Shown here one piece after another: positions 4,022 through 53,431 of a DNA stretch of 64,000 nt. How positions within the stretch are numbered: position 1 is the stretch's first letter; every line of letters begins with the position of its first letter. Position numbers and translations under genes: made by a program. The DNA lies in assembly GCF_004293625.1 (NCBI RefSeq), contig NZ_CP033040.1:2046001-2110000 (forward strand), in the 5' to 3' direction. The stretch is from Thiomicrorhabdus indica (GTDB lineage Bacteria > Pseudomonadota > Gammaproteobacteria > Thiomicrospirales > Thiomicrospiraceae). The notes under the pieces were generated by a model, which saw nothing but the letters and a program-made list of their open reading frames with translations, had not been told where the DNA came from and did no database searches.

Positions 4022-4032
4022 CGTTTTCCTTC

Positions 4033-4983: not shown

Positions 4984-5004
4984 GTTCACTACTATTTATT
5001 TTAA

Positions 5005-7929: not shown

Positions 7930-7986
7930 GTGACGGTCACAAATAACTAACTGTGACGGTCACACACCCATATTTGTGACGGTCAC
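7930..7986. repeat. Three palindromic iterons at exact 23-bp spacing
   Basis: The 11-bp palindrome GTGACGGTCAC occurs at 7930-7940, 7953-7963 and 7976-7986, each followed by A. The start-to-start distance is 23 bp both times. The array lies in the gap between the minus-strand alpA-rep-DUF927 operon and the plus-strand gene at 8041. It could be a replication origin with iterons for the HUH protein, or an operator bound by a dimer of AlpA or of the 163-residue protein. Confidence 0.85.
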
Positions 7987-8040
7987 ATTTCATCTTGATA
8001 AAATAGAGAATCACTATGACTACAGAAGAGCATCACAATC

Positions 8041-8532
8041 ATGGCTACAAATAAAAAACTTACCCAAAAAGCAGGCAGCGCTAAAAGACAGGAAACTCGC
8101 CGTAAGAAATTCACAGATGCCGGCTTTAAACGCCTTGAAATGTTTATTAGCGATTCAACAGAAGAGTTGCTCTTTGAACTAATGAAAAATTGCGGTTATC
8201 AGGATTACGCTATAGAGGGCTCAAGTAAGGGAAAAACCTTGGATGTTTCAAACTTCCTTACATTCTTGATAAAAGATGCCGCAATCAATGAAAGTGAGTA
8301 CAACTTGTTCAATAAAGAACTACACAATTTACTCATGATTTCAGATATACATAACCACCTGAAATCTCAAGAAGGCTATGAGGATGGAAAACTTCGACAG
8401 TTTTTGCATGACAATAACTTTGCCATTCCTGACTCAATGGAAGATAAAAAACTCAAAGGAAAATCAGCCGAAGGACGTATTAGAAGGGCTTTAAAAACAC
8501 ATGACGCTGAAGAGTTCTCAGAGCTGCTCTAA
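8041..8532 (+). CDS. Basic small protein of the integrative element, unknown function
   Basis: 163 residues. The first 30 are strongly basic (RRKKF, FKRLEMF) and could include a ribbon-helix-helix-like DNA-binding part; the rest is mixed helical with no known motif. There is no signal peptide. It starts 54 bp after the last of three palindromic iterons and faces away from the alpA-rep operon. A role as autoregulator or copy-control protein binding those sites is plausible but is inference. No strong ribosome site is seen before the ATG. Confidence 0.6.
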   Translation: MATNKKLTQKAGSAKRQETRRKKFTDAGFKRLEMFISDSTEELLFELMKNCGYQDYAIEGSSKGKTLDVSNFLTFLIKDAAINESEYNLFNKELHNLLMISDIHNHLKSQEGYEDGKLRQFLHDNNFAIPDSMEDKKLKGKSAEGRIRRALKTHDAEEFSELL

Positions 8533-8543
8533 TTCACCAAATA

Positions 8544-9455: not shown

Positions 9456-9593
9456 ATCTATGAACTCCATATAATGCGTATTAAACCAAGTAATGTTTTC
9501 TCACCGCACAACCAACCCTCAGCCGCTTATCAGCTGATTACAGTAAACCTTGGGTGATTTGGTGAAATTGTGATTTGAGAGTGAATGCTTGAA

Positions 9594-9613
9594 GGCCTGC
9601 AAGAACACAGGCC
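9594..9613. terminator. Hairpin downstream of hipA
   Basis: GGCCTG and CAGGCC pair across an 8-base loop just past the end of hipA (minus strand). There is no clear T run, so terminator function is only possible. Confidence 0.35.
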
Positions 9614-9651
9614 ATTGATTACTTGAACGGTGGTTTGTTTGTTTGGGTGAA

Positions 9652-10899
9652 TTAGAGCCGCTGCGCCATGAAAGCAGGTGCCATTATCTCTTGCTCTTGG
9701 CGACTGATTTTGAGTTGATTAGCGACTTCGCGCCATTGATCAACGGCATCAATCACTTCGCGGTAGATTGTTTCAGCATCTTCTCTACTGAGCTGAAAGT
9801 AATCGATAACAGAGAAGGCTAATTCGAAGTCTAGGCGGTTATCCATTTCATCAATGTTTAGATGCAATCCCATGCCATCTGGTACTGGGTTAATGTCATA
9901 GGCAGGTGATAATATCCAACCCTTTTCGGTATGGATAAAACCGTGATTTCGGAGGTGGTCATCGGTGTTAGAAACCGAGATATAAAACACAATACGCCGC
10001 CATAGCTGGGCCAGATCCGCTTTAGTGTTAGCGCCATTTGCTATCAAGAATTCCGCCAATTCTAGGTAACTCGCTCCTTCCTCACCATCAAAGTACGCTA
10101 ACTGCGTCATGGCCGAAGAAAAGTGCAATCGAGCGCCAGAATCACGGTCAAAACGCTTGGTTAGGAAGGTATGATGTTGGCTGTTTAACTGCTTAATCTC
10201 GCACTTAGCCATGTTGATACCGGCTTTTAGAGCTAGCTGATAAACGACCATTTCCCATGCAGCAATATCGTAATCATCGTAGCGACTGGGAAACTTGGCG
10301 ATCCAAAGCTCACTCGCATCATCAATCACACTCGCCTTAGGTCTTGCGCCACCTAATGAAGACCCCGGAGAAATCAGCATATTAAGCCACTTTGTATACT
10401 CAGGGGTAGCATCCACACCGGACTTTTCAACTTCTACTGCCGCCTGTTCTAACTCGCGTAAAGACGACATTGGCGGTGCAGCGAGCTCACTATTATCATC
10501 TAAAAATGGACCGTCTTCAGATAACTTAAAGCGCAAAGCGCCCATCCGATGCATATCATGCACACCGAGTAGATAGTCTGTTTCGGTCAATTTCTTGGGC
10601 TTTCTCCCCTCTTGCCTCGCCCAAACCGCCTCTCTACGCTGCATAATCAACCGGCCCCATCGATCTGGGCAGGAGTCTAAAAACGCTCTAAAATTTCGGT
10701 CATTCTGGCTATGTTGCTCCCCTTGAAATAAGTGGAGATCAGGGTCGATTTGTTGTGCGAATTTGGAGGTTAACCAAGCTGTGTCGTAGGTAAAGCTAAA
10801 GTGCTCACCGCCACGCACATTATCCGCTCGCAAAACACCCACTTTAAGCGGTTCGGCGATTCCCTGCCAATGGGCATAAACGAATATTTCTCGACTCAT
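9652..10899 (-). CDS. hipA: HipA-family serine/threonine kinase toxin
   Basis: 415 residues. An N-terminal HipA domain is followed by the kinase core with the family's SSLGGARPKA loop (about residues 175-185), the catalytic NTDDHLRNHGF loop (about 310-320) and the SPAYDINP metal-binding segment. E. coli HipA phosphorylates glutamyl-tRNA synthetase and causes growth arrest; the target here is unknown. The start overlaps the end of the upstream Xre gene by 4 bp, the usual hipBA arrangement with the antitoxin first. All core motifs are present, so it should be active. Confidence 0.92.
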   Translation of the reverse strand: MSREIFVYAHWQGIAEPLKVGVLRADNVRGGEHFSFTYDTAWLTSKFAQQIDPDLHLFQGEQHSQNDRNFRAFLDSCPDRWGRLIMQRREAVWARQEGRKPKKLTETDYLLGVHDMHRMGALRFKLSEDGPFLDDNSELAAPPMSSLRELEQAAVEVEKSGVDATPEYTKWLNMLISPGSSLGGARPKASVIDDASELWIAKFPSRYDDYDIAAWEMVVYQLALKAGINMAKCEIKQLNSQHHTFLTKRFDRDSGARLHFSSAMTQLAYFDGEEGASYLELAEFLIANGANTKADLAQLWRRIVFYISVSNTDDHLRNHGFIHTEKGWILSPAYDINPVPDGMGLHLNIDEMDNRLDFELAFSVIDYFQLSREDAETIYREVIDAVDQWREVANQLKISRQEQEIMAPAFMAQRL

Positions 10900-11201
10900 G
10901 ATGACTTACCTTTCAACAGTTCAATATCCTGCAATTTACGCCCTAAGACATCATCTGCCGCAACTTGAGCAACATCTTCGGCTAAACCCAATACTGACAA
11001 AACCAGCATATAATGACCAATTGAGACAGATCCCTCTCCTCTCTCAATCTTGCGTAAAGTAGGTTTAGACAACCCTGTTCTTTCTGCCAACTGGGTCTGC
11101 GTAAGCTTTCTACGCTTGGTTGCCAGACGAATATTTTCACCCAACTGCTCCAATAGCTTTACCTGCTTAGGAAAAAGAGTCGCTGTTCTCTTATCAGCCA
11201 T
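10896..11201 (-). CDS. hipB: HipB-like Xre-family antitoxin
   Basis: About 101 residues with a standard Xre helix-turn-helix (LTQTQLAERTGLSKPTLRKI, about residues 33-52). It should bind HipA and repress its own operon. I chose the ATG at 11201, preceded by AGGTGGT; a GTG three codons earlier lies inside that ribosome site. The AT-rich 110-bp gap upstream would carry promoter and operator. Confidence 0.88.
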   Translation of the reverse strand: MADKRTATLFPKQVKLLEQLGENIRLATKRRKLTQTQLAERTGLSKPTLRKIERGEGSVSIGHYMLVLSVLGLAEDVAQVAADDVLGRKLQDIELLKGKSS

Positions 11202-11312
11202 AACCACCACCTAATTTAATACATAACAACACAATACACTAAAACCCATTAAAGTGAAACTATATTTACATTTTAAACAAAATATGAAAAACACAACTTC
11301 ACTTTATAAGCT

Positions 11313-11798
11313 CTACATCAATCCTTTCTCCGCAAACGACGTGTATTCACCTCCACCAATAATCAAGTGATCGAGTAGACGGACATCCACCAGATCTAAC
11401 GAGTCTTGTAGAGTTTTAGTTAAAGACTTATCTGACTCACTTGGCGTAGTATCGCCACTTGGATGATTGTGAACACAAATCATTGCCGCAGCATTTAATG
11501 AAAGTGCCATTTTGACAATCTCTCTAGGGTAGACGTTGGCGGCATTAATCGTACCCTTAAACATCTCCTCAAACTTGATCACCCTATGCTGATTATCAAG
11601 AAAAAGGCATGCAAATACTTCATGCTCATATCCAGCCAGTCTATGCATAAAATAATGATGCGTCATGGATGGCGAGGTTAATGCGTCACCACGCTTAAAT
11701 TTCTCAGCAATCAAAGACTGTGCAAAACTTAAAATCTCAGCTTCTGACACTTCCCCTCTAACTCGATAAGCCCCATCTGTTTTAATAAAATTGGTCAT
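11313..11798 (-). CDS. RadC-like JAMM-domain protein
   Basis: 161 residues covering the RadC/JAB fold without the N-terminal helix-hairpin-helix of chromosomal RadC, which is the form common on mobile elements. The JAMM metal site is complete: HNHPSGDTTPSESD with His 110, His 112 and Asp 123. The name RadC is historical; such proteins are probably metallopeptidases or isopeptidases, and their role on mobile elements is unsettled. The start overlaps the stop of the upstream papain-like gene as ATGA, so the two are made together. Confidence 0.85.
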   Translation of the reverse strand: MTNFIKTDGAYRVRGEVSEAEILSFAQSLIAEKFKRGDALTSPSMTHHYFMHRLAGYEHEVFACLFLDNQHRVIKFEEMFKGTINAANVYPREIVKMALSLNAAAMICVHNHPSGDTTPSESDKSLTKTLQDSLDLVDVRLLDHLIIGGGEYTSFAEKGLM

Positions 11799-12340
11799 TT
11801 CAACTTCTCCAAAAAATAAATCTCATCTTTTAACAACTCCAACCGCCCTTCTTCCTCGAAGCGAAAGGAACTTCTAAATGCAGTATTCAACGTGCTGCTA
11901 TCAATAAAATAGACCCGCTTTTTGTCAATTTTTCTCACCAGTGTCCAGTGATATGGAGTACCGATAATCACTACTCTTTTAGCCCCCAGTTTTGATAAAA
12001 AACGTTGAATCTCATTGAGAATGGCATTCGCTGTTCGAAATCGTTTTTCCTTAAAAGGTTGGTTAAACTTGATAGGAAAGTGCTCTGCATACTTACCTCT
12101 CATTAACCCTTGCTGAATCATGTGCTCAAGTTGCTCAGTTTCTGTTCCAAAAAACATCAAGTCGCGCAGAGGCCATTTTTGGTCATAGAGCTTCAATAAA
12201 TGCTGCTTTAATCTATAACGTTGCTTAAACTCCCCTTCAAACAGATAAGCCACCGCATTGACCAAGCAATAAACTCCACACAAATTATCCAAACTTCCTT
12301 GTTTTGATGGCACAAAGCCACCTGTATGACGCGCATACAT
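11795..12340 (-). CDS. Papain/C39-like cysteine hydrolase fold, putative
   Basis: 181 residues from the ATG at 12340, which has a GGGGCAGG ribosome-site stretch; a GTG at 12376 is an alternative. The layout resembles cysteine peptidases of the C39/papain type: LCGVYCLVNAV near residue 21-31 (candidate Cys 21 or Cys 25), HWTLV with His 131, and YFIDSS with Asp 147. There is no signal peptide. It is translationally coupled to a JAMM protein. Substrate and activity are unknown; a deamidase, transglutaminase or peptidase role is equally possible. Confidence 0.55.
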   Translation of the reverse strand: MYARHTGGFVPSKQGSLDNLCGVYCLVNAVAYLFEGEFKQRYRLKQHLLKLYDQKWPLRDLMFFGTETEQLEHMIQQGLMRGKYAEHFPIKFNQPFKEKRFRTANAILNEIQRFLSKLGAKRVVIIGTPYHWTLVRKIDKKRVYFIDSSTLNTAFRSSFRFEEEGRLELLKDEIYFLEKLK

Positions 12341-12551
12341 AACCTGCCCCTTTAAACCTAAAAACTTTAAATACACCGACCCCTTGCAATGAAATATTGC
12401 TCAAAATAAACAATCAGGGGTGGTATTGAATAGTGATAACTATGCTGAATAGCCAGTCAAAGCCAATTAAATAATTGACTTAAATGCAGTATAAAACGCC
12501 ACTACAAAAAGGTCAAACTATTGAATTGAAAGGAGTTTTTAAAATTATTTA

Positions 12552-12929
12552 TTAGAACTGATCAAGAAGATTGATTACCGATCTTTGCTGCTCAATGGTC
12601 AAATCAGACCAAATCTGTTGCATACGGGTGAATAGATCGCTTTCACTCACACCAACGTAAATTTCAGGGGATTCTTGAATCAAGCCGCCGGTATCAAGAG
12701 GCTTGCAGTCAGTAAAAAACCAACCAATCGGAGTTTGGGTAAAAGCAGCGATACTAACGAGGTGAGTAATATTGATTTTATTTTCTCCCCGTTCATATCG
12801 GGAAAGCTGTTGCTGTGAAATGCCAATACTTTCAGACAGTTGAGCTGCGGTCAAATTCAATTCCTTCCGACGAATCTGAATCTTTCGACCCACACTTTTA
12901 TCAACATCGGTTACCGAGAGCTTGGACAT
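12552..12929 (-). CDS. Xre-family transcriptional regulator
   Basis: About 125 residues with an Xre helix-turn-helix (LTAAQLSESIGISQQQLSRY, residues about 25-45) and a C-terminal dimerisation-type tail. It resembles the repressors of integrative elements and prophages. The ATG at 12929 is chosen because the upstream codons overlap its AAGTGGT ribosome site. It is divergent from the GIY-YIG-like gene at 13040, so the short gap between them is a likely operator. Confidence 0.85.
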   Translation of the reverse strand: MSKLSVTDVDKSVGRKIQIRRKELNLTAAQLSESIGISQQQLSRYERGENKINITHLVSIAAFTQTPIGWFFTDCKPLDTGGLIQESPEIYVGVSESDLFTRMQQIWSDLTIEQQRSVINLLDQF

Positions 12930-13039
12930 AACAACCACTTAGAATTATGAATAAGTGGAATTTTCAGGTCATTTCACTCTTGTATAAACATCACTAGCTA
13001 ACTAGAATCATGGTTTTACTCTTTTATGGACAAATCACA

Positions 13040-13549
13040 ATGGGCGATATTTTAATTAGCTGGGACGGTCCTTACGATCTTGACACCATTAAAGAAAAAA
13101 ACAGTGATAATGATTACGGCGTTTATCAAATCTATGGACACCACCCTGTCTATGGTAATGACGTACTTTTATACATTGGAAAAGCCGAGCGCCAAACATT
13201 TGGTAAACGGATTTCTCAAGAAATAAGTTGGCTTTACAACTCTGATTCAAATAACGTAGAAATATACATTGGCAAGCTATTTGGAGAATCGCACCCAACG
13301 CCTGAAGAATGGAACTCTCAAATCGATATTGCGGAAAGAATACTTATTTACACACATTGGCCTGCAGGCAATTCAAGTAATATAAATTCCATTACTTCAA
13401 ATACTGAATTCTTAAAAGAGATCAAACGATTTACGGTTGTTAATTACGACAATTATCGTTCGCTTAACTCAGTTATCTCCGCACAACATGAACTCAATGA
13501 GCTCGAATGGTTCGATGAAGAGCATTCATATTATTCGGTAAAAAACTAA
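13040..13549 (+). CDS. GIY-YIG-like nuclease-fold protein
   Basis: 169 residues. GVYQIYG (about 27-33) and LLYIGKA (about 43-49) match the paired strands that name the GIY-YIG fold, and the Arg in GKRI (about 57) sits where the catalytic Arg is expected. A catalytic Glu is less obvious, so activity is not certain. The ATG at 13040 gives an N-terminus (MGDILISWDGPY) that leads straight into the domain; an ATG at 13010 is possible. The next gene starts directly after its stop, and a WYL regulator follows. Confidence 0.65.
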   Translation: MGDILISWDGPYDLDTIKEKNSDNDYGVYQIYGHHPVYGNDVLLYIGKAERQTFGKRISQEISWLYNSDSNNVEIYIGKLFGESHPTPEEWNSQIDIAERILIYTHWPAGNSSNINSITSNTEFLKEIKRFTVVNYDNYRSLNSVISAQHELNELEWFDEEHSYYSVKN

Positions 13550-13894
13550 ATGCATAGAATAACAGCAAAATATATAGAGGATAACGACGATTTTATCGTA
13601 TTGGACATATCCATTGATTCAGAACTTAAGCCCAAAAAAATGTTTTTATTTGGATATGCTAACGAAGGTATTAAAGGACAAAAATGGCCTCTTATTATTG
13701 AACAGCACGGATGTAGTTCAAATGCTCAAATCACTTGGGGTGCATATGAAGAAAACACCGTGAAATCTACTATAAATATTTTCGATAAAAAAATATCTAT
13801 TAACGAAATGTTCACACGATTTGACCATGACACCGTAGATAATACCCAAACAGAGTATGTTTACCGCATAACTAAAATTGAAAAACTCGACTAA
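13550..13894 (+). CDS. Small protein of unknown function coupled to the GIY-YIG-like gene
   Basis: 114 residues, mostly predicted beta strand by eye, with no signal peptide and no motif I know. Its ATG follows the stop of the GIY-YIG-like gene with no gap, and its end overlaps the likely start of the WYL gene, so the three are almost certainly one operon. It could be an inhibitor, chaperone or second subunit of the nuclease-fold protein. That is inference from position only. Confidence 0.55.
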   Translation: MHRITAKYIEDNDDFIVLDISIDSELKPKKMFLFGYANEGIKGQKWPLIIEQHGCSSNAQITWGAYEENTVKSTINIFDKKISINEMFTRFDHDTVDNTQTEYVYRITKIEKLD

Positions 13895-14903
13895 TTCAGT
13901 GAGTACAAATTTCTACCGCAAACTGCAAACCCTCAGCTTACTTCCAAGTTATCCAAGCCGAGTAAGCACAGCGGCTCTATTGACTGCTTTAAAGGCACAA
14001 GGGTTTACGGTAGAAATTCGGCAGTTGCAGCGTGACTTGAACAGTCTTGCTCAATTGTTTGAAATCGAAACTGACGGGAATAAAGATATTCCCGGTTGGT
14101 ATTGGAAATCGGATGCCAAAAAGCTTGAATTACCACAGATGGCGCTGCCAACGGCATTGAGTTTTGAGCTCTCCAAAAAATACTTAAGCCAATTATTTCC
14201 TGAAGGCGTGCTGCATCACCTTGCACCTTACTTTGCTCACGCACAAGAGTTACTGGAAAACAGCGGCTCCTCTCTTGCTAACTGGTCAAACAAAGTTGCC
14301 ACCGTTTCACGCAACCAACCGCTGATTCCTCCAGAGGTTGATCAAAGCATCCTCAATGCAGCCTATCTGGCATTACTTTCTGAGACACGAATTGACGCTT
14401 TTTACCGGCCGGTATTAAAGAAAGAATCAGCTTATCAACTTGACCCTAAAGGCATCGTTATTGTTGACCAAATCATTTATTTGGTTGCTGAGAATATTGA
14501 ATCGAAAACAGTGCAGCAGTTTGCTTTACATCGGTTCTCAGGTATCAAAAATACAGAACAAAACATCGACCAGAATGATGACTTTGATTTAACGGCCTAC
14601 CTTGAACAAGGCAACTTGCTTTATCCTTATCACTCTCCAAAAGAGATCAAACTTAAACTGCAAGTCAGTGAGCGTGCCGCTTTCTATCTCAACGAAATGC
14701 GACTCTCTACAGACCAGATAATCACTCCGTCAGAAAACGATGACGAATACCTTGTCACCGCGACAGTTCAAAACACTGAACAGTTGAGATGGTGGCTGCA
14801 AAGTTATAGCTTTTATATAGAGGTCATAGAACCTGAAAGTTTGCGTGAAGAATTTGCCGAAGCGGTGGAGATTCTTCACGAAATGTATCAGGCTTGGGCT
14901 TAA
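13878..14903 (+). CDS. WYL-domain transcriptional regulator
   Basis: 341 residues: an N-terminal winged helix (about 10-75), a WYL domain in the middle (about 165-225) and a WCX-type C-terminal domain. There is no ATG. The frame can start at TTG 13878, overlapping the upstream gene by 17 bp, or at GTG 13899; neither has a good ribosome site. WYL regulators often govern defence operons and bind a small ligand or nucleic acid. It carries the first copy, from the left, of the genome's repeated palindrome (14404-14413). Confidence 0.8.
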   Translation: MKNSTNSVSTNFYRKLQTLSLLPSYPSRVSTAALLTALKAQGFTVEIRQLQRDLNSLAQLFEIETDGNKDIPGWYWKSDAKKLELPQMALPTALSFELSKKYLSQLFPEGVLHHLAPYFAHAQELLENSGSSLANWSNKVATVSRNQPLIPPEVDQSILNAAYLALLSETRIDAFYRPVLKKESAYQLDPKGIVIVDQIIYLVAENIESKTVQQFALHRFSGIKNTEQNIDQNDDFDLTAYLEQGNLLYPYHSPKEIKLKLQVSERAAFYLNEMRLSTDQIITPSENDDEYLVTATVQNTEQLRWWLQSYSFYIEVIEPESLREEFAEAVEILHEMYQAWA

Positions 14904-14928
14904 ATTAAAAATTAAAAGCACTAAATTT

Positions 14929-16098
14929 CTAACAACCACCATTCAAACGGTAGTAAGTTTCATTTTCAGAAGGTTCTGCAATCACCACACCCACTTCCTG
15001 CATCTGGTCAAGGATTCTATGAGTCTTGTTAAACCCTGTCCGCAATTCTCTTTGCAGCATGATAAAAGAAACCTGCTTGTGAGCAAATATAAACTCGACC
15101 ACTGATTCAAAATAACTCGTCATTTCTTGATAATACGGTTGGGGTTCCGGCGGTGGCGCAATAACAGCCGGTACATAATCAGGTGATTTCCCCTCAATCT
15201 GTATCGAGTTTAAAACCTCAATCACTTCCGTCGACATTACACTTGTTGGCAATAGCTCCAAAGGTTTCATTTTTCCACTAGGCAAGAACAATAAATTTTC
15301 CCAACCAACCTTTTCGACATCATCAACGTCAAAAATAAACTTTGAAGCTTGAGGGCTGGCAGTTTGTAAAACGATTCTGGATGGCATATAAGCTTTAAGT
15401 TTTTCAGTGATCACCTCCTCAGATAGCCACTTGGTTGCGACAATTAAATGAATGCCTGTCGCTCTTGAAATTCTAGCGGTTTGCGAAATCATTAGATCTC
15501 GTAAATCTGGGGACAATTCAGCAAGCTCTCGAACGCCCATCACAATGTATGGCAATGGCTGAAGATCGGCATTTTCTGCAATCACCTTTCGATTATAAGC
15601 CTCAATATCTCTCACCTTGAGCGCATCCATAACTTGTCTACGTTTGAATGCCTCATTGAGACACCAATTCAATGCATTCATGGCATGATCAGGGCGGGTA
15701 ATGACCGGTGTTAGTAAATGAGGAACCTGATCAAACTCTGTCAACGTTTTGCGCTTTGCATCAATTAAAACCATTCTCAGGTTTGACACCGAAGAGCCTT
15801 TTAAAAGACTCAGCAAAGCAAGCTTGAAAACATCATTCTCAGGCGCAGACTTACCCGCAATTAGCAAACTGTGTATTTGAACTAAATCATAAGAATAATT
15901 TTCACCAGTACGCTCTCTGCCAATAACAACAGGAAGTGAAAATTCAGACTGTTCTAGGTTACTCGATGAAAGCACCTCCTTTAATGGATTACCTAGTGTT
16001 GTAACCGGAGCATCAAATTCAAACATGCTTGGTCTTATTAGTAATTCGTTGTTTGAAGACCGACTCCACCAACTGAAAATTGACTTGAAATTAACCAT
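14929..16098 (-). CDS. FtsK-like protein with degenerate ATPase motifs
   Basis: 389 residues that follow the FtsK/SpoIIIE motor domain (about 55-290) and end in a gamma-type winged helix (about 325-389). There is no membrane domain. The Walker A region reads AGKSAPEND (81-89), where FtsK has a GxTGSGKS loop, so the Lys and Ser are Asn 88 and Asp 89. Walker B reads VRELAEL (189-195), with Arg in place of the first Asp. Most other core segments are well kept (LLTPVIT, ARATGIHLI-type, FLPSG). It probably binds DNA but cannot hydrolyse ATP in the usual way. Start ATG 16098 has GAGGAG. It converges on the WYL gene. Confidence 0.8.
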   Translation of the reverse strand: MVNFKSIFSWWSRSSNNELLIRPSMFEFDAPVTTLGNPLKEVLSSSNLEQSEFSLPVVIGRERTGENYSYDLVQIHSLLIAGKSAPENDVFKLALLSLLKGSSVSNLRMVLIDAKRKTLTEFDQVPHLLTPVITRPDHAMNALNWCLNEAFKRRQVMDALKVRDIEAYNRKVIAENADLQPLPYIVMGVRELAELSPDLRDLMISQTARISRATGIHLIVATKWLSEEVITEKLKAYMPSRIVLQTASPQASKFIFDVDDVEKVGWENLLFLPSGKMKPLELLPTSVMSTEVIEVLNSIQIEGKSPDYVPAVIAPPPEPQPYYQEMTSYFESVVEFIFAHKQVSFIMLQRELRTGFNKTHRILDQMQEVGVVIAEPSENETYYRLNGGC

Positions 16099-16299
16099 GT
16101 AAAGACTCCTCTAATAAATAAAACATGCAAGCATCACATCATGAGTTTTATTTTGACAAAGAGTTCAAACACCCTAAAGTCCTCCTCAGCACAGTCACGT
16201 CATAAATTGACGCCACCAAGCCCCTGCCCTATTCGCAGAGAATCAAAGTGATCATAGAATTGACCTGCAAAAACTTTGAACTTAAATTAAGGATTAACA

Positions 16300-16575
16300 A
16301 TGAAAGGACTTAAAGCTACTCTGGTTGCAGGGCTTATAGTAACAAGCTCTACTGCTAATGCCGGTAAATGGTTGAGTGTTGGAGAAATTATTAGCGTCAA
16401 CTTAGATCATTACGGATTAATAACCCCAACCATAATTGTCGATTGGGTTACTCTTGATTGCCCAAACAATATCAGGATAAACCCTGCACTAAAGTTGGGA
16501 GTAGATAAGGTAATACTTGGAACTGGAACCTGCGCAAAATCTGAAAATGACGTTGACGCAAAAAACAGGCCATGA
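16300..16575 (+). CDS. Small exported protein of unknown function
   Basis: 91 residues with a clear signal peptide (MKGLKATLVAGLIVTSSTANA, cleavage after about 21). The mature part of about 70 residues has two cysteines that could form one disulfide. The start at 16300 has AAGGA eight bases upstream. It is not recognised as a family. It overlaps a 25-codon frame by 4 bp at its end. Confidence 0.55.
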   Translation: MKGLKATLVAGLIVTSSTANAGKWLSVGEIISVNLDHYGLITPTIIVDWVTLDCPNNIRINPALKLGVDKVILGTGTCAKSENDVDAKNRP

Positions 16576-16649
16576 AATTGGCACTCGACTATTTTGAAGA
16601 TATTACAGACTTTCTTGAAGATAGTGATCGCTTCTACCAACTTAAATAG
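16572..16649 (+). CDS. Possible 25-residue acidic peptide
   Basis: ATG overlaps the stop of the small exported protein as ATGA and the frame ends in TAG at 16647. The peptide is acidic and amphipathic (YFEDITDFLEDSDRFY). Two hairpins follow. Length alone cannot prove it is translated. Confidence 0.3.
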   Translation: MKLALDYFEDITDFLEDSDRFYQLK

Positions 16650-16656
16650 CTCTTGA

Positions 16657-16721
16657 AACGCTCAGCCGAGGGCGTTCAAAATTCTGTGTCAGCCGAGGGT
16701 GCTAAATATCGAGCACCTTTT
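16657..16721 (+). terminator. Two hairpins sharing a repeated loop, second with T run
   Basis: The first hairpin pairs AACGC with GCGTT (16657-16676). The second pairs GGTGCT with AGCACC (16698-16717) and is followed by TTTT, a fair terminator for the plus-strand gene. The sequence TCAGCCGAGGG occurs in both hairpin regions. Confidence 0.5.
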
Positions 16722-16742
16722 GTTGTCAGAGTGCATGTGGTT

Positions 16743-16749
16743 GTTAGGC
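16743..16749 (-). other. Integron-type core site (attC-like half) at the GNAT gene end
   Basis: GTTAGGC on the plus strand, GCCTAAC on the minus strand, holding the TAA stop of the GNAT gene exactly as gene cassettes often do. On the minus strand it continues AACCACATGCACTC, but the matching second half of an attC site is not found downstream. Confidence 0.4.
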
Positions 16750-17232
16750 ATTTATATCCACCTTCAGCTTTCTTCCACCAGTTATTTCAAAACCATTGCC
16801 CTGATAAAAAGCCAATGTTCTATCAAATGCTGGTAGCGGTGGTGTTGTTACCTCAATTCTCTGCCAGCCTTTTTCTTTGGCGAATTTCATAACTTCATTC
16901 AATAGCATTTGACCTACGCACTTTGAACGCCAGGTTTTCGTTACATATAGTTCAGGCATTGTTCCATAAGCACCTTCTGAATACAGTGCATAGCTTTCAT
17001 ATAATGAGACAAACCCAATGACGTTATTTGTTGCTGCTTCTCTTGCAACAAATACCCAATATTTTCCATCAGATATTAGGCTTGCAGCTCTTGCCTCTGT
17101 TTCTTCACGATTATAATTGAAAACATTGATACCTATTTTTTCCATTATTTCATTAAGAAGCTCACCAACCAAAACGGATAGAAATTGGTATTCGGTTTCT
17201 TGGATTGGCCCAATTTGTATATTTAGTGACAT
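16744..17232 (-). CDS. GNAT-family N-acetyltransferase
   Basis: 162 residues with the GNAT fold. The acetyl-CoA-binding region is the stretch around LYVTKTWRSKCVGQMLLNEV (about 97-116), with the later GNGFEITGG strand. The substrate is unknown; cassette-borne GNATs include antibiotic- and toxin-modifying enzymes. It starts 6 bp after the upstream C39-like gene and its stop codon lies in an integron-type core sequence, so both genes may have arrived as one cassette. Confidence 0.82.
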   Translation of the reverse strand: MSLNIQIGPIQETEYQFLSVLVGELLNEIMEKIGINVFNYNREETEARAASLISDGKYWVFVAREAATNNVIGFVSLYESYALYSEGAYGTMPELYVTKTWRSKCVGQMLLNEVMKFAKEKGWQRIEVTTPPLPAFDRTLAFYQGNGFEITGGRKLKVDINA

Positions 17233-17237
17233 GAATT

Positions 17238-17648
17238 TCAGACCTTTACCTCAATAAACCACTTTGGCTTTATTCGACCAAAATCTGTTCTTTTGTTTGT
17301 TTTTAACGATTTTTTTGAATCTAAGATGTATGACTCACTTTCTTCTCTAACAAAAACTACCCAATGCCAATAAGCCTTGCCTTTTTCCATGTGCCATTTA
17401 GTGGATAATAAGGCCACATCAGGAACTGATTCCCAAGTATCAAATGCCGATTCAATATTTGCGGCTTCTATGCCGAGCTTTGCCAGCAAATTACGGATGT
17501 AGATTGTTTCCGACCAAAGCTTACTATCATCAGCATAAATTCCGATGCTGTTTGCGATTTTCTTTGTTTCTGAATAAGTCATCCCAGCTATCGCTGCTGC
17601 ACTTGCAATAGCGCAACCGGTTATTTCTTCTTGTATAACTGGTTTCAT
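17238..17648 (-). CDS. C39-like cysteine peptidase fold, putative
   Basis: 136 residues from the ATG at 17648, preceded by AGAGAAA. The fold is suggested by QEEITGCAIASAAAIAG (Cys 12 after a Gln/Glu pair), WHWVVFV (His 95) and YILDSKK (Asp 110), the Cys-His-Asp order of peptidase C39-like proteins. It lacks a transporter partner or signal peptide. A core sequence of integron type lies 10 bases upstream of the ATG. A second papain-like protein of this island (11795-12340) has the same Cys-His-Asp layout but is not obviously related in sequence. Confidence 0.55.
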   Translation of the reverse strand: MKPVIQEEITGCAIASAAAIAGMTYSETKKIANSIGIYADDSKLWSETIYIRNLLAKLGIEAANIESAFDTWESVPDVALLSTKWHMEKGKAYWHWVVFVREESESYILDSKKSLKTNKRTDFGRIKPKWFIEVKV

Positions 17649-17657
17649 TTTCTCTAT

Positions 17658-17664
17658 GCCTAAC
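17658..17664 (-). other. Integron-type core site upstream of the C39-like gene
   Basis: On the minus strand this reads TTGTTAGGC followed by ATAGAG and the gene, the way a cassette begins after its recombination point. Read with the site at 16743-16749 it would bound a 0.9-kb two-gene cassette. Confidence 0.4.
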
Positions 17665-17666
17665 AA

Positions 17667-18023
17667 TTATTATACATCCTAATATTACTTACATTTCATG
17701 TGTAAATCATTGTATTTGTCGCCGCTTTATATAACTATTTCGTATTTTAATATACAGTAAACTACTGATTTTTAAGTTATAAAAATATACCAGCACTTTT
17801 TTATGCTGCATAAACTATAGCTCCTAAATCTAGATTTTAAGGCTTAGTTAAAATAATAGCCTTAAAATCATCCAGTAAGAAAAATAAGAACGACTGATTA
17901 ATTAGTTTTGGTAAATTGCAAGAACGGACTAGTCATTTGATTCATGTGATAATTTTCATTTCTTCTCAATGCTCAATTTATGAATCTATAAATATCAATC
18001 TTCAATCTCTTGACTGCCTTCAT
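17667..18023. other. AT-rich intergenic region with one hairpin
   Basis: No coding frame can be supported here. The only clear structure is TTTTAAGGC pairing with GCCTTAAAA (17835-17843 with 17859-17867), a possible bidirectional terminator. The stretch lies downstream of the P4-type integrase gene (minus strand) and upstream of the cassette-like pair. Confidence 0.5.
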
Positions 18024-19346
18024 TCATTGACAAATAACAATTTCATCGAGACGATCACACCATTTTTGCAGCCATTCCTTGGCTTCTTCTTCATAGTGAT
18101 GTAAATCGTAAGTACCTTCGATACCTTTTTTCGAGTGCCCTAAAATAGCTTCACTTACTTCTCTAGGACAGCGAAGCTTTGCCAGCTGAGTTCGAACTGT
18201 CCGTCGCAGGTCATGAGGCGTCCAAGAGTCAATATCTGGATGATCGTTATTTTTTCTGGAATAGTACAGTTGCTGAGTCAGCTGTTTTTGATCAAGCGGT
18301 CGGTCCGTTAAATTTCCACTTCTATTTTTTGCCCTGAATACATACTTTCCAGATACGTGAATATCTGCCAAGAATTTAATCGCCTGCACAGAGAGCTGAA
18401 CATACCGGGAGGCACCGGTCTTTGTCTCTTTTAGAAAAATAGTTCCTTCTTTCAAATTTACATCCGACCACTGAACAACACATACCTCACCTGTACGCAT
18501 CCCAGTTAGTAAGGTAAATTTCAGTACATCTTTAACCGTTGGGGATAAAAACTGAGTCGTTGGCAACCATTGCCATAGCTTTTGCAATTCGAGTTCAGTT
18601 AGCACCCTTTGACGCTTGCCATTTGAAATTTTGACACCAGAATCTTTGATTCTAGTTTTAATCTCCGGACAAGGGTTTTGAAAGTTAGGCGGTAATCGAT
18701 CATTCGAAATCGCAAAACGATAAGCAAGATTCAATTCTCGTAAAACATTACCTGCCTGAACATTTGCTCCTCTGGCAATAATCTGATCAACCATAACCTT
18801 TACTTCAATTAATGGTGTTTCAGATACAGGCTTATCGCCCAACACTCGAACGACATCTCCATATAGCGTCCGTCTGACTTCTTTCTGGCCTTTCTCTTTA
18901 CGGCTACCGAGAATAATTTTTCGATTTCCTTTTCGATCAGGCTCAGAGTAACGATCTTCAACTTTTTCAGTAAGGTACAAGTCAACCATCGCCTTAAAGG
19001 TAAAGCCCAGCTTCTCAGAGGCAAGCCTTGCTTCTAACTCCGCTGCTTTAAGTCTAGACTCTTGATCTATCAAATACTGCTGAGGGTCGTAACCACTTGC
19101 TCTAAGCGCTTTAAATTCTTGCAGCTTTGTACGAGCATCCGCGAGACCAATTTCGGGGTATACTCCCAACATAATCTGCTTCATTTTGCCTTCAAAGTTT
19201 TTATACCTATAAATAAATGAAGTCGCTCGAGATGTCTTTTTAACCCTTAAACCGGTGTTATCACCAATGTCGGTAAGGACATCACCGCTTTTCATTTTGG
19301 TAACAGCAATCGCAGTGATAGGTTTTTTGGTAGAATTAGCAGCCAA
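18024..19346 (-). CDS. P4-type tyrosine integrase (DUF4102 plus catalytic domain)
   Basis: 440 residues: an N-terminal DUF4102 arm-binding domain (to about 95, with KQIMLGVYPEIGLADAR), a SAM-like region, and a phage-integrase catalytic domain with Arg in GMRTGEVC, the HDLRRT box, GHSKKGIEGTYD and the Tyr near LHHY. These integrases usually insert genomic islands. The frame begins with TTG at 19346, with GAGGG a short way upstream. It sits at the border to core mutS and next to four 12-bp tandem repeats, so it probably marks the island's right end. Confidence 0.9.
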   Translation of the reverse strand: MAANSTKKPITAIAVTKMKSGDVLTDIGDNTGLRVKKTSRATSFIYRYKNFEGKMKQIMLGVYPEIGLADARTKLQEFKALRASGYDPQQYLIDQESRLKAAELEARLASEKLGFTFKAMVDLYLTEKVEDRYSEPDRKGNRKIILGSRKEKGQKEVRRTLYGDVVRVLGDKPVSETPLIEVKVMVDQIIARGANVQAGNVLRELNLAYRFAISNDRLPPNFQNPCPEIKTRIKDSGVKISNGKRQRVLTELELQKLWQWLPTTQFLSPTVKDVLKFTLLTGMRTGEVCVVQWSDVNLKEGTIFLKETKTGASRYVQLSVQAIKFLADIHVSGKYVFRAKNRSGNLTDRPLDQKQLTQQLYYSRKNNDHPDIDSWTPHDLRRTVRTQLAKLRCPREVSEAILGHSKKGIEGTYDLHHYEEEAKEWLQKWCDRLDEIVICQ

Positions 19347-19436
19347 TTTTGATGCCCTCTAGAATAAAAGCTTTCAAATAAATAAGTTCTGATAGCGTCA
19401 ATGGATAACGTTTTTACATAAATCATTATACGATAT

Positions 19437-48278: not shown

Positions 48279-49154
48279 ATGAAAAAAGTTGTTATCCCTG
48301 TTGCAGGATTAGGAACACGATTCCTGCCTGCAACCAAAGCCATTCCAAAAGAGATGATTACGCTCGTCGACAAACCTCTTATTCAATATGTGGTTGCTGA
48401 GGCCATTCGCGCTGGATTTACGGACATTATTTTGGTCACCCATTCTTCAAAAGGCGCTATCGAAAACCATTTCGATCACAACTATGAGTTAAACAAAACG
48501 CTCGTCGAAAAAAACAAACTTGCTTTGTTAGACATTATTGACAACATTCTTCCCGGTGATGCCAATATTATCTCGGTTCGCCAACCCATTGCTCTTGGGC
48601 TTGGTCACGCAGTTTTATGCGCCGCACCAATTATTGGCGATGATGACTTTGCTGTCATGCTACCAGACGTGATTTTGAACGAAGAATCTTGTGATTTAGC
48701 CAAAATGGTTCAAGCTTTTCAATTAAACCGAAAAAGCCAAATTATGGTGGAACCTGTACCACAGGAAGAAACATACAAATACGGTATCGTCGATATTCAA
48801 GGCAGAGAGCTTGCACCTGCAGAATCCACCGAAATGGTAAACATGGTTGAAAAACCCTCTGTCGATAAAGCACCTTCAAACTTATCGGTTACCGGCCGGT
48901 ATATTTTAGACAATGACATTTTAGGTATTCTTAGAACGACGCCAAAAGGCGCTGGCGGCGAAATTCAATTGACAGATGCAATTGATACCCTAATGAAAGC
49001 ACAAGGCGCAGAAGCTTATCGTTTAGAAGGCAAAAGCTATGACTGTGGTGATAAACTAGGATATCTGCAAGCGACTTATGAATTCGCTTGCCAACATCCA
49101 GAACTAGGACCTTCATTTACTGAATGGCTAGCTACGATAGCTCAGGAGACTTAA
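48279..49154 (+). CDS. galU: UTP-glucose-1-phosphate uridylyltransferase
   Basis: 291 residues. The nucleotide-binding loop AGLGTRFLPATKAIPKEM (residues 9-26) is complete, and FAVMLPDVIL and VEKPS follow as in GalU. It makes UDP-glucose for envelope polysaccharides. It is the first gene of a cluster with pgi, a degenerate UDP-glucose-dehydrogenase-like gene and pmm. A full palindrome copy codes for TGRYI (48891-48900). Its stop overlaps the pgi start as TAATG. Confidence 0.96.
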   Translation: MKKVVIPVAGLGTRFLPATKAIPKEMITLVDKPLIQYVVAEAIRAGFTDIILVTHSSKGAIENHFDHNYELNKTLVEKNKLALLDIIDNILPGDANIISVRQPIALGLGHAVLCAAPIIGDDDFAVMLPDVILNEESCDLAKMVQAFQLNRKSQIMVEPVPQEETYKYGIVDIQGRELAPAESTEMVNMVEKPSVDKAPSNLSVTGRYILDNDILGILRTTPKGAGGEIQLTDAIDTLMKAQGAEAYRLEGKSYDCGDKLGYLQATYEFACQHPELGPSFTEWLATIAQET

Positions 49155-50716
49155 TGAAAAATACTCAGGCCTATTCCCAATTAAGCCAATTGGCTGAAAA
49201 CCTTCAAACGACAGATTTGAAATCTTTATTTGATGACGAAAATCGATTTGAGCAATTTCATGTCACAATGCCTGGAGCAATGCTTGATTTCTCCAAACAA
49301 AAAATTACATCTGAAATCTTTAATCAATTAGTGTCACTGGCAAAAGAAGTCGACCTAAAAGGTTGGATTGACCGCTTAATTTCCGGTGAAAAACTGAATC
49401 ACACAGAAGGCCGTGCCGCATGGCATACAGCGCTTCGAAATCTAAGCGAACCTTTGCCAGAGGTTGAGTTGCAATGGCATAAAATGGCCTACATTGTTCA
49501 TGAACTCCACTCCAAGCAAATGCGAGGATACTCAGGAAAACCGATTTATGATGTGGTCAACATTGGGGTTGGAGGAAGTGATTTAGGTCCATTAATGGTC
49601 ACGCACGCCTTGGAAATGCAGAAAAAACCGGATGCGCCTAACGTACATTTCGTTTCAACACTCGACGGTCGTCAGCTTCAGTCGATTCTGGCTAAACTTA
49701 ATCCTGAAACCACTTTGTTTGTTGTGGCTTCAAAATCCTTCACTACAATTGACACCCTCTCTCTAGCAGAGACAGCCAAAGAATGGATGCTCGACCATTG
49801 CGGTTGCTCGACGACCGTTATGCGCCATTTTATTGGCGTCTCAACCAATGTCCCCAAAATGAGCGAATGGGGTATTCTCCCAGATTACCAATTAGAGTTT
49901 TGGGACTGGGTTGGTGGTCGTTTTTCGCTTTGGTCATCGATCGGTTTAACCATTGCTATCCAACAAGGAATGGAGGGATTCAAAACCCTTCTTCAAGGTG
50001 CTCATGATATGGACACCCATTTCCAAGAAGCACCGATTGAACAAAACCTTCCGGCTTTGGTCGGACTCATTGGTGTATGGAATACCAACTTCTTGAACTT
50101 AGCTGGTCAAGCCATCCTTCCTTATGATTCCCGACTTAAGCATTTTGCAGGCTATCTAGAACAGTTGGAAATGGAATCCAACGGCAAGCACACTCAACGA
50201 GACGGTGAATTTGTTGACTATCGAACTTGCCCGATTTTGTGGGGTGAAGTTGGCCCGAATGCACAACATGCTTTCTATCAGCTGTTACACCAAGGAACGG
50301 AACGTGTCATGTCTGACTTTATTTTATTTAAAGAAGGACAAGGAACTGACGAACGTGCGCAATTCCATCAGAACTTAAATATCGCCAACTGCCTTGCACA
50401 AAGTCGCGCCATGATGGTCGGTCAAGAAAGTGATGACCCACATAAACACTATCCTGGAAATCAAGTTTCGAATACGCTGCTTTTAGACCGAGTAGATGCC
50501 TATCACCTCGGCATGCTAGTCGCCCTATACGAACACAAAGTTTTCACACAATCAGTCGTTTGGAACATCAACCCCTTTGATCAATGGGGCGTGGAACTCG
50601 GTAAAAAAATCGCCTTGAACATTTTAGATTCGATTGAACAAAAACAAGCCGACCATTTAGACGGTTCAACTCAAGGCATTTTGAAACAAATCTGGGAGCA
50701 CACCTATGCAAATTAA
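49154..50716 (+). CDS. pgi: Glucose-6-phosphate isomerase
   Basis: 520 residues from the ATG at 49154, which overlaps the galU stop and has CAGGAG upstream; a longer in-frame start exists but lacks these features. Signatures: VGGSDLGP, the SKSFTTIDT sugar-phosphate loop, catalytic Glu in MESNGK, His in GTDERAQFHQ-type segment, and Lys in GVELGKKIA. It interconverts glucose-6-phosphate and fructose-6-phosphate and links gluconeogenesis from CO2 fixation to sugar-nucleotide supply. Confidence 0.96.
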   Translation: MKNTQAYSQLSQLAENLQTTDLKSLFDDENRFEQFHVTMPGAMLDFSKQKITSEIFNQLVSLAKEVDLKGWIDRLISGEKLNHTEGRAAWHTALRNLSEPLPEVELQWHKMAYIVHELHSKQMRGYSGKPIYDVVNIGVGGSDLGPLMVTHALEMQKKPDAPNVHFVSTLDGRQLQSILAKLNPETTLFVVASKSFTTIDTLSLAETAKEWMLDHCGCSTTVMRHFIGVSTNVPKMSEWGILPDYQLEFWDWVGGRFSLWSSIGLTIAIQQGMEGFKTLLQGAHDMDTHFQEAPIEQNLPALVGLIGVWNTNFLNLAGQAILPYDSRLKHFAGYLEQLEMESNGKHTQRDGEFVDYRTCPILWGEVGPNAQHAFYQLLHQGTERVMSDFILFKEGQGTDERAQFHQNLNIANCLAQSRAMMVGQESDDPHKHYPGNQVSNTLLLDRVDAYHLGMLVALYEHKVFTQSVVWNINPFDQWGVELGKKIALNILDSIEQKQADHLDGSTQGILKQIWEHTYAN

Positions 50717-51953
50717 TGTTTTTGGCTCAACCATTTCTGCACTGGTCACCGCAGGTTGCTTGGCGGAAACCGGTAACCAAGTGACTTTAATTGGAAACAT
50801 TCCAGAATCTATTGCTGAACCGAACCTTTCAAAGCTGCTAAAGAAACAATTGAAAGCCGGTTTTTTGAAGGTTTCTGAGCAGTTTAACCAAGAAGCCAAC
50901 TTCCACTTTATTTCACTGCCTTCTGGTGCCTGTCAAGATGCAGTAGTGATTGCCGAACAGTTAAGCGAAAAAGCCCAAAAAGATAGCTATTTAGTACTTC
51001 GATCCAACTTTGGCTTTCCATTGTCTCATCAAGTCATTGACACAGCTAAACTACCCTTTATTGTGAATCCTGATTTTGCAGCTGACGGGAATGCCATTAA
51101 TGCCTTTACAAGACCTGATCGAATTATTATTGGCAGTGAAGATGAACATGCAACTGAAGACTTTAAACGCTTAATGTCACCCTTCAATCGTAACCGCGAT
51201 GTTTCGATTGTCATGTCTCCAGATTCAGCAATCTTAACTAAATACGCCACAAACGTGTTAATTGCAACTCGCATTAGTCTTATGAATGAACTTGCTCTGG
51301 TTGCGGAAGAAATGGGAGCGGATATTGAACAAGTCCGTCAAGGTCTTGGTTCAGACCAACGCATTGGTTTTTCTTACCTTTATCCTGGGGTTGGCTTCGG
51401 TGGTGAGCACCTCGAAATGGACTTAGAACGTGTCCAAGCGTTAATTGACAAAACGGGATCACAAGAGAATTTGCTACGCTCTGTAGCAAATATCAACCAT
51501 ACCCAAAAAGAACTTCTTTTCCGCAAGCTCTGGAAACATTTCGATTGCCAACTCACCAATAAGCAAATTGCCCTTTGGGGGATTAGCTACAAACCAAACA
51601 GTAGCTCCATAAAAGGTGCACCGAGCTTAGTGATGATTGAAGCCTTATTGCACCAAGGGTGCCAAGTCAATATCTATGACCCAAAGTTAGGAAAGTCATT
51701 CGACCAGTGGTGTCAAACCTATCTATCAGAACAGCAACGTTCGCAGTTGCATATTTTTGATGATCCCTACAACGCACTGGACAACTCTGATGCTTTGTGT
51801 GTTTTGACAGAATGGAAACAATTCTGGTCTCCAGATTTTTCAGAGATGCAACAACGAATGAAGCACTCGGTGATAGCCGACGGCCGAAATCTATATGATC
51901 CTGAGCATTTAAAATCACTTGGTTTTACATACTTTGGTGTGGGTCGAAAATAA
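50706..51953 (+). CDS. UDP-glucose dehydrogenase homologue lacking catalytic residues
   Basis: 415 residues that keep the length and three-domain order of UDP-glucose 6-dehydrogenase. Key residues are lost. The NAD loop GxGxxG reads GSTISA (7-12). The catalytic-Cys motif GFGGSCFPKD reads GFGGEHLEMD (230-239), so Cys is His 235 and Lys is Met 238. The Lys of the ATKIS motif is Arg 189. NAD use and normal oxidation to UDP-glucuronate are therefore unlikely. The frame is intact, starts inside the end of pgi (11-bp overlap) and is followed by pmm, so it is probably kept for a different role such as sugar-nucleotide binding. Confidence 0.85.
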   Translation: MQINVFGSTISALVTAGCLAETGNQVTLIGNIPESIAEPNLSKLLKKQLKAGFLKVSEQFNQEANFHFISLPSGACQDAVVIAEQLSEKAQKDSYLVLRSNFGFPLSHQVIDTAKLPFIVNPDFAADGNAINAFTRPDRIIIGSEDEHATEDFKRLMSPFNRNRDVSIVMSPDSAILTKYATNVLIATRISLMNELALVAEEMGADIEQVRQGLGSDQRIGFSYLYPGVGFGGEHLEMDLERVQALIDKTGSQENLLRSVANINHTQKELLFRKLWKHFDCQLTNKQIALWGISYKPNSSSIKGAPSLVMIEALLHQGCQVNIYDPKLGKSFDQWCQTYLSEQQRSQLHIFDDPYNALDNSDALCVLTEWKQFWSPDFSEMQQRMKHSVIADGRNLYDPEHLKSLGFTYFGVGRK

Positions 51954-52069
51954 CTGACAAACCACTCAACAGCCCATTTATTCTGCTGAAATAAATACCG
52001 GCCGGTATAAATCCGGCCAAAACCGCCCTTTTTTCATACATCCTCTGAATCTCACATCTGGATAATTCA

Positions 52070-53431
52070 ATGACTTATAGTTTAGATTGCATTAAAGCCT
52101 ATGATATTCGCGGTCGCGTACCAGACGTTCTCAATGCCGATTTTGCTTACGATCTTGCACGTGCCTACAGCACAGTTTTCCAACCCAAGACACTTGTTGT
52201 TGGCCATGATATTCGCCAAGAAGGGCCTGAACTGAATGAAGCACTCTGTCGTGGCTTTGCCGAAAGCGGCGTACAAGTACTTCATTTAGGACTTTGTGGC
52301 ACGGAAGAAGTGTATTTTGCAACCTCTCACTATCAAGCCGATGGCGGAATCATGATCACCGCCAGCCACAACCCCAAAGGCTACAACGGCATGAAGTTGG
52401 TTAAAAATGGATCACAGCCCATTGGTCAAGACTCTGGCTTGAAAGACATTAAAACAACAATGGCTTCTCAAAGTTTCTGTGAAACAGTGCCAACACCGAC
52501 ACCACTCGTTGAAATACATGACAAATCCGCTTATATCCAGCATCTACTTGGCTTAATTGATTTAGACGAACTAAAACCCCTGAAAATCCTGGTAAATGCT
52601 GGGAATGGTGCAGCCGGCCCAACATTCGATCAACTAGCCAAACACCTGCCCTTCGAATTTATTCGAATGCAACACGAGCCTGACGGCAATTTCCCGAATG
52701 GCATTCCAAACCCGATGTTATTTGAAAACCGCGAAGTAACGGCAAATGCACTTAAAGAAAATCAAGCCGATTTTGCAGTTGCTTGGGATGGTGATTTTGA
52801 CCGCTGTTTTTTATTTGATGAAACCGGCTATTTTATTGAAGGTTATTATTTAGTCGGTCTTCTGGCGAAAACCCTTCTAGAAAGAAATCCAGGCGAAAAA
52901 ATTATTTACGACCCACGCATGACGTGGAACACCATCGAGCAAGTCACAGAATCTGGTGGAATCCCTTTACAATGCAGAACAGGTCATTCATTTATTAAAG
53001 ACATGATGCGTACAGAAAATGCCATTTACGGCGGTGAAATGTCTGCTCATCACTACTTTCGGGATTTCTTTTACTGCGACAGTGGCATGATTCCTTGGCT
53101 GCTCATAGCAGAACTGATGAGCAAAACGGGGAAAACGTTATCCGATTTAATCGGAGATCGTGCCAAACGATTCCCATGCAGTGGCGAGCTGAACTACAAA
53201 GTCACTAATGCCAAAGCAATCATGCAGGCTGTTGAAGCGGCTTACCTGCCTCTCAACCCTGTAATTGATCCAACCGACGGCATTGGCTATGAATTCAAAG
53301 AATGGCGCATGAATATGCGAACATCAAATACGGAGCCTCTGCTACGCCTAAACGTTGAATCTCGCGGCAATCCTGAATTGGTTGCTGCAAAAGTCAAAGA
53401 GATTGAGGCGATTATCGAACGTATCGGTTAG
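52070..53431 (+). CDS. Phosphomannomutase/phosphoglucomutase
   Basis: 453 residues of the alpha-phosphohexomutase family. Active-site phosphoserine loop ITASHNPKGYNGMK (about 94-107), metal loop DGDFDRCF (about 240-247), sugar-binding GEMSAHH (about 322-328) and phosphate-binding RMSNTEP-type segment (MRTSNTEPLLRL, about 425-436) are complete. It resembles AlgC/ManB and can supply mannose-1- or glucose-1-phosphate to GalU and other pathways. Confidence 0.93.
   Translation: MTYSLDCIKAYDIRGRVPDVLNADFAYDLARAYSTVFQPKTLVVGHDIRQEGPELNEALCRGFAESGVQVLHLGLCGTEEVYFATSHYQADGGIMITASHNPKGYNGMKLVKNGSQPIGQDSGLKDIKTTMASQSFCETVPTPTPLVEIHDKSAYIQHLLGLIDLDELKPLKILVNAGNGAAGPTFDQLAKHLPFEFIRMQHEPDGNFPNGIPNPMLFENREVTANALKENQADFAVAWDGDFDRCFLFDETGYFIEGYYLVGLLAKTLLERNPGEKIIYDPRMTWNTIEQVTESGGIPLQCRTGHSFIKDMMRTENAIYGGEMSAHHYFRDFFYCDSGMIPWLLIAELMSKTGKTLSDLIGDRAKRFPCSGELNYKVTNAKAIMQAVEAAYLPLNPVIDPTDGIGYEFKEWRMNMRTSNTEPLLRLNVESRGNPELVAAKVKEIEAIIERIG

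Follow-up and report, generated by a model that had tools for sequence, protein, structure and literature searches.

The window analysed here is a stretch of 64,000 nucleotides from Thiomicrorhabdus indica. The genes of interest run in the order galU-pgi-pseudo-Ugd-pmm (Table 1), where pseudo-Ugd denotes a degenerate homologue of UDP-glucose dehydrogenase (Ugd). A reading made from the letters alone (the sequence-only reading) had described this gene as full length and coupled to pgi. Both descriptions were borne out: the open reading frame of 415 codons has no internal stop and the fold model spans the whole length of the 415-residue protein, and pseudo-Ugd starts 11 bases inside the end of pgi, whose stop codon ends at 50716. 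The true pgi start may instead be the ATG at 49154. Given the hairpin downstream of pseudo-Ugd, the operon may end before pmm. Promoter-like matches were not in excess (12, against a shuffle mean of 13.7). Elsewhere in the window, positions 500-19400 contain two integrase-like ORFs (8544-9470 and 18024-19346), an IS3-like transposase (4033-4893) and a HipA-like ORF (9652-10899); by these names, which were given by eye, the region resembles an integrated element.

Table 1. Coordinates of the genes and of the lost and retained elements of pseudo-Ugd, in window positions
Feature	Position	Strand	Basis or remark
galU, UTP-glucose-1-phosphate uridylyltransferase	48279..49154	+	TIGR01099 347.7 vs cut-off 326.8
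pgi, glucose-6-phosphate isomerase	49124..50716	+	overlaps pseudo-Ugd by 11 bases
pseudo-Ugd, degenerate Ugd homologue	50706..51953	+	415 aa; three-domain Ugd fold
Former dinucleotide-binding motif GxGYVG, now GSTISA (residues 7-12)	50724..50741	+	sequence
Deleted GTPxxxDG loop, place approximate (~residues 72-75)	50919..50930	+	alignment gaps at T86, P87, D91, G92 in 61/61
Former KST motif, now RSN (residues 99-101)	51000..51008	+	residue table
Retained K179 and N183, equivalents of human Lys220 and Asn224	51240..51254	+	Lys 60/61, Asn 42/61
Retained R219, equivalent of human Arg260	51360..51362	+	61/61
Active-site loop GVGFGGEHLEMD (residues 228-239)	51387..51422	+	glycines and D239 kept; Cys replaced by H235, Lys by M238
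Residues 269-276 with E269, R273, W276	51510..51533	+	conserved in degenerate clade, not in canonical Ugd
Retained K296, equivalent of human Lys339	51591..51593	+	61/61
Retained DGRN (residues 392-395) with R394	51879..51890	+	61/61
Hairpin GGCCGG/CCGGCC, between pseudo-Ugd and pmm	51998..52020	.	z -2.67
pmm, pmm/pgm-type phosphomannomutase/phosphoglucomutase	52070..53431	+	domain and NCBIfam models

The arrangement around the gene recurs in other genomes. Among the ORFs listed, pgi lies directly upstream in 54 of the 57 degenerate loci found in the window's GTDB family besides the window itself. In the remaining three, the two genes form a joined frame (L074), galU-pgi is found in the named copy (L162), or the contig ends 396 bases from the gene (L061). 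Beyond the family, galU and/or pgi are near 16 of 18 degenerate loci assigned to the same clade; in two loci of Methylococcales MAGs (L143, L145) both are absent from the available flanking DNA. Moraxellaceae loci have the gene either between galU and pgi or after galU-pgi. The joined frame of L074 (G034:C187, 943 aa) was considered as a natural pgi/pseudo-Ugd fusion and rejected. Its junction is one base off compared with G022, within a run of A in an assembly that is fragmented, and is possibly an assembly error.

Residues lost and kept in pseudo-Ugd

All three Pfam Ugd domains match pseudo-Ugd, with 37.5 bits for the N domain, 90 for the central domain and 88.1 for the C domain. The N domain, which binds NAD in Ugd, is the eroded part, because its score is far below those of the other two. 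TIGR03026 ('nucleotide sugar dehydrogenase') is the only model above its own cut-off among the NCBIfam models matched by the protein (241.7 vs 189.8). The nearest sequence with a solved structure is BceC. An AlphaFold2 model (pLDDT 89.8, pTM 0.78) superimposes on BceC (2y0e_B) over 415 residues with a Z score of 47.5 and an rmsd of 1.8, tied with 3gg2_D (Z 47.7); structural neighbours were also searched by Foldseek. Pseudo-Ugd is thus a Ugd homologue in sequence and in predicted fold, and models as a protein that has kept the whole three-domain architecture.

Its active-site residues were compared with those of true Ugd, as the sequence-only reading had proposed, in a residue table of 61 degenerate and 27 canonical rows chosen by hand from the sequences retrieved. 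A row was called degenerate if it was without the catalytic Cys or the G.GY motif. The table excludes L195, two outgroup rows and L063, a distant canonical row; four rows from a single Moraxellaceae branch were counted apart. Equivalences to human residues were read from motifs and not from an aligned human sequence. Overall, the NAD elements are kept in 0-2 of the 61 rows and four UDP-sugar contacts in 60-61.

The individual substitutions named in the sequence-only reading were all confirmed: GxGxxG reads G7-S-T-I-S-A12, H235 stands in place of the catalytic Cys, and two lysines of the site, those of FPKD and KST, are M238 and R99. Beyond these, the GTPxxxDG loop is deleted, and T9 and G30 occupy the places of a canonical Gly and of the Asp after strand 2. 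The same losses extend through the degenerate rows. The motif Gly (G9) is present in 0/61 and the acidic residue after strand 2 (D30) in 2/61, T86, P87, D91 and G92 are gaps in every row, and the KST Lys (K119) is found in 0/61. In SCFPKD, C266 and P268 are each kept in 0/61 and the Lys in 4/61; the zeros for Cys and G.GY arise partly by construction, because both served as row-selection criteria. Position 235 is Asn in 23 rows, Ser in 20, His in 7 and Gly in 6, and therefore no replacement nucleophile is conserved there. The idea that it provides a new catalytic His was rejected, as His occurs in just 7/61.

The sugar side of the site is different. The UDP-sugar contacts are present in the window protein, including two lysines that the sequence-only reading did not mention, K179 and K296. 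Among the degenerate rows, columns K210, R250, K329 and R421, which correspond to human Lys220, Arg260, Lys339 and the DGRN Arg, are kept in 60/61, 61/61, 61/61 and 61/61, respectively. The DGRN Arg, R394 in the window protein, is presumably a UDP contact, as in Ugd structures. D270, the equivalent of human Asp280 and D239 in the window protein, is kept in 55/61. Retention is poorer for the equivalents of Asn224 (42/61), Thr131 (32/61) and Glu161 (13/61, with Asp in 41). The roles of Lys220, Arg260, Cys276, Asp280 and Thr131 are those described for the human enzyme in the available text of PMC3184952, where Arg260 reaches across the dimer to the sugar. Columns conserved in canonical Ugd have a mean retention of 0.40 over the 57 that lie in the N part, 0.74 over the 42 of the middle and 0.80 over the 32 of the C part. 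Y224, E269, R273, W276 (61/61) and Q317 mark five columns that are conserved among the degenerate rows but not among the canonical ones.

These sequence comparisons indicate that UDP-glucose dehydrogenase activity has very probably been lost. The opposite possibility, a still-active dehydrogenase with an unusual site, could appeal to the TIGR03026 cut-off that the protein passes and to the human C276A mutant, which according to PMC3184952, as far as its text was available, still oxidises the aldehyde intermediate. However, the NAD motif, the strand-2 Asp, the GTPxxxDG loop, the KST Lys and the Cys are absent together, and we regard this possibility as highly improbable.

Distribution and selection

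A match at E<=1e-20 was found in 57 of the 62 genomes of the window's family. After removal of one duplicate locus there are 62 family homologues, of which 58 have neither the Cys nor G.GY and four are canonical. No internal stop interrupts any of the 62 matches. The degeneracy is therefore neither chance nor sequencing error. In a tree of 96 rows, hand-chosen from the sequences retrieved and built on 300 columns of the central and C-terminal domains excluding the active-site loop, 65 degenerate rows form one clade with support 98/100, nested within canonical Ugd. Its members come from the window's family, family f102, two Methylococcales MAGs, Alcanivoracaceae, Pseudomonadaceae (Halopseudomonas), Salinicola, Marinobacterium, Moraxellaceae and one MAG labelled Microbacteriaceae. 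The contig of the last (L215; Actinomycetota by its label) carries pgi, pseudo-Ugd and galU and branches with Marinobacterium in the tree; it may be misbinned or a transfer. A Thiotrichaceae sequence (L195) with SFFPQD for SCFPKD and GSNYIG for GxGYVG falls among live Ugd in the tree and is apparently a separate, independent loss outside the clade.

Wider searches varied in yield. A genome-contig search with the single protein found no relative, and one with alignment A1 gave the best 80 of 466 relatives. Viral contigs gave 97 pattern matches and no relative. In 369 genomes of the class, 26 loci were read, of which L112 and L113 are degenerate and the L114 row proved to be another ORF of its locus. 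A search of the 369 genomes with profile A2, in which the scores of dead and live Ugd overlapped, led to seven further readings, with L287 (beside galU) and L290 (beside pgi) degenerate. In neither of these class-wide searches did score set dead genes apart from live ones.

The gene is under purifying selection in the relatives, a point that the sequence-only reading had suggested examining. Over 25 independent pairs with dS 0.1-2.0, each sequence used once, the median dN/dS of pseudo-Ugd is 0.062, with values from 0.009 to 0.223; for pgi at these loci it is 0.055 (20 pairs). An earlier set of 22 hand-picked pairs, which overlaps this one in part and in which three genomes occur twice, gave medians of 0.053 for pseudo-Ugd and 0.047 for pgi, and is the only source of domain values: dN over whole-gene dS is 0.071 for the N domain, 0.025 for the middle and 0.050 for the C domain. 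In the Methylococcales loci L143 and L145 the N domain is faster (dN over gene dS 0.358). Decay of the gene in relatives, which would have spoken against a pseudoenzyme, was thus not seen among the 62 matches. A decaying pseudogene would account for the lost motifs, but the uninterrupted frames, the low dN/dS and the single well-supported clade leave it next to no probability.

The proposal of a pseudoenzyme is therefore upheld by one clade under purifying selection that has lost the NAD elements and the nucleophile without replacement at position 235 and usually lies beside galU and/or pgi. Fold retained, catalytic residues lost and gene kept by selection, pseudo-Ugd is well supported as an old pseudoenzyme of the Ugd family, forming one clade across several gammaproteobacterial families.

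Moraxellaceae and the Acinetobacter capsule locus

Among Moraxellaceae, 46 of 67 Ugd-like rows, mostly from the top of a longer match list, are without the Cys. One set of these genomes we take to be Acinetobacter-like and another Psychrobacter-like. One locus, L269, carries an itr-like gene, galU, pseudo-Ugd, gpi and an epimerase, followed by pgm on the opposite strand and a permease; its lesser gene names were assigned by resemblance. In A. baumannii, module B/Region 3 of the K locus, beside lldP, is described as galU-ugd-gpi-pgm in the accessible parts of PMC3628348 and PMC9676051. The gene order of L269 is that of module B/Region 3, and Moraxellaceae loci of the L269 type carry clade members; gene order is the basis for equating these with the A. 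baumannii gene.

The capsule-locus ugd is annotated in those papers (PMC3628348, PMC9676051) as making UDP-GlcA, which would favour an active dehydrogenase; it is also stated to occur in every cluster described. On the other side, a database table in PMC9676051 enters D-GlcA under ugd2-ugd5 together with the figure 24, in our own reading a count of K loci. That D-GlcA is assigned to ugd2-ugd5 although ugd is in every cluster fits a dead Region-3 Ugd. An insertion in ugd has been reported among phage-selected capsule-gene mutants of A. baumannii (PMC10904470, text seen in part), and possibly acts through gpi downstream.

In L278-L284, which we take to be Psychrobacter-like, a yet more degenerate version follows galU-pgi at full length. 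In the one Moraxellaceae branch counted apart, K210 and R421 are lost in 4/4 rows and K329 in 3/4, and the gene persists, with dN/dS 0.071 between L278 and L283 at dS 2.62. W276, E269 and R273 are retained in 4/4. Since several UDP-sugar contacts are lost in this branch, sensing should not be assumed for the whole clade.

Proposed role and related systems

The sequence-only reading had raised sensing or channelling of UDP-sugars, which fits the conserved UDP-sugar contacts. The best single reading, tentatively held and given a little under an even chance, is that pseudo-Ugd binds a UDP-sugar without catalysis and serves the UDP-glucose branch as a regulator or scaffold. It would still bind UDP-glucose, the product of GalU, or a related UDP-sugar without turnover. 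By contacting other proteins it would regulate or scaffold, as a subunit, the supply branch formed by Pgi, phosphoglucomutase and GalU, and report the UDP-glucose level. In favour of this reading are the retained pocket residues, the single clade, the strong purifying selection, the linkage to galU and/or pgi, the clade-specific W276, the predicted fold and the reported ugd insertion mutant. Against it stand the less well kept active-site residues, the pocket losses of the one Moraxellaceae branch, and the two Methylococcales loci with neither galU nor pgi in the available DNA and a faster-evolving N domain. The helix around E269, R273 and W276, conserved in the clade alone, would be the first candidate for a new contact. 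The pocket conservation could instead reflect stability of the fold or dimer.

Two other roles are unlikely. Pseudo-Ugd could have become a new enzyme whose pocket carries out a non-redox or otherwise altered reaction on a UDP-sugar; a different ligand might then occupy the site that once held NAD. The retained UDP-sugar contacts and D239 (55/61), an N domain that is predicted to fold and evolves under selection (the median of 0.071 given above), and the human structure 5vr8, recorded with UDP-xylose in the coenzyme site, are consistent with this. However, the Cys has no conserved catalytic substitute, only five columns are specific to the clade, and one Moraxellaceae branch has lost pocket residues, so that we consider a new enzyme rather unlikely. 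Alternatively, the protein could serve Pgi, GalU or a capsule machine purely as structural support or stabiliser, its sugar pocket a relic. The usual position beside pgi or galU and the retention of W276, E269 and R273 in the pocket-losing branch would agree with such a partner, which we also judge unlikely: the pocket K, R, K and R are kept in 60-61 of the other 61 rows, exceeding what a relic would need.

A prozyme-like subunit regulating a live Ugd of the same cell was also considered. At least two TIGR03026 matches (E<=1e-20), some of them fragments, were found in 45 of 60 family genomes, one in 11 and none in four. A Ugd that looks intact is encoded elsewhere in the genome of the window (G000:C1:12811-13962), and a single sugar-nucleotide locus, L286 (G457:C37), holds canonical Ugd, galU, pgi, pseudo-Ugd and pmm. 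In the single-contig genomes G026, G029, G031 and G061, however, the degenerate gene is the only match at that threshold, which makes a prozyme quite improbable.

Returning to the regulator or scaffold, a bolder version is that one old pseudoenzyme clade is a dedicated UDP-glucose-responsive subunit of the Pgi-Pgm-GalU branch, and that the always-present Acinetobacter capsule 'ugd' belongs to it and makes no UDP-glucuronate. This is possible, though on balance doubtful. If true, it would explain the additional ugd2-ugd5 assigned to glucuronate-containing capsules. Metabolic models and capsule predictions that credit clade genes with UDP-glucuronate would be wrong, probably including the gene that PMC9676051 reports in every A. 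baumannii capsule cluster described. The NCBIfam model would name pseudo-Ugd genes dehydrogenases. We recognised no prior report of an inactive Ugd of this type in the open-licence PMC literature, as far as its text was accessible, and earlier notice is possible. Pseudo-Ugd offers a conserved, genetically simple pseudoenzyme for a direct test of a UDP-glucose-responsive, non-catalytic role.

Among known systems, the A. baumannii capsule-locus 'ugd' is alike by gene order, galU-ugd-gpi-pgm being common to the Moraxellaceae loci with clade members, and differs by its printed annotation as a source of UDP-GlcA (PMC3628348, PMC9676051, as available). With UDP-glucose 6-dehydrogenase of the Ugd/BceC type (TIGR03026), pseudo-Ugd shares the full-length three-domain fold, the UDP-sugar contacts and the dimer-crossing Arg; unlike it, pseudo-Ugd has no NAD motif, catalytic Cys or KST Lys, has the GTPxxxDG loop deleted, and usually lies beside galU and/or pgi. 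OpgH and UgtP are cell-size regulators linked to UDP-glucose sensing. Together with GalF, named a GalU regulator in NCBIfam, they have folds unrelated to that of pseudo-Ugd. The likeness of all three lies in their connection with UDP-glucose synthesis or nutrient status and in the discussion of such proteins, as far as the literature was accessible, as regulatory or moonlighting.
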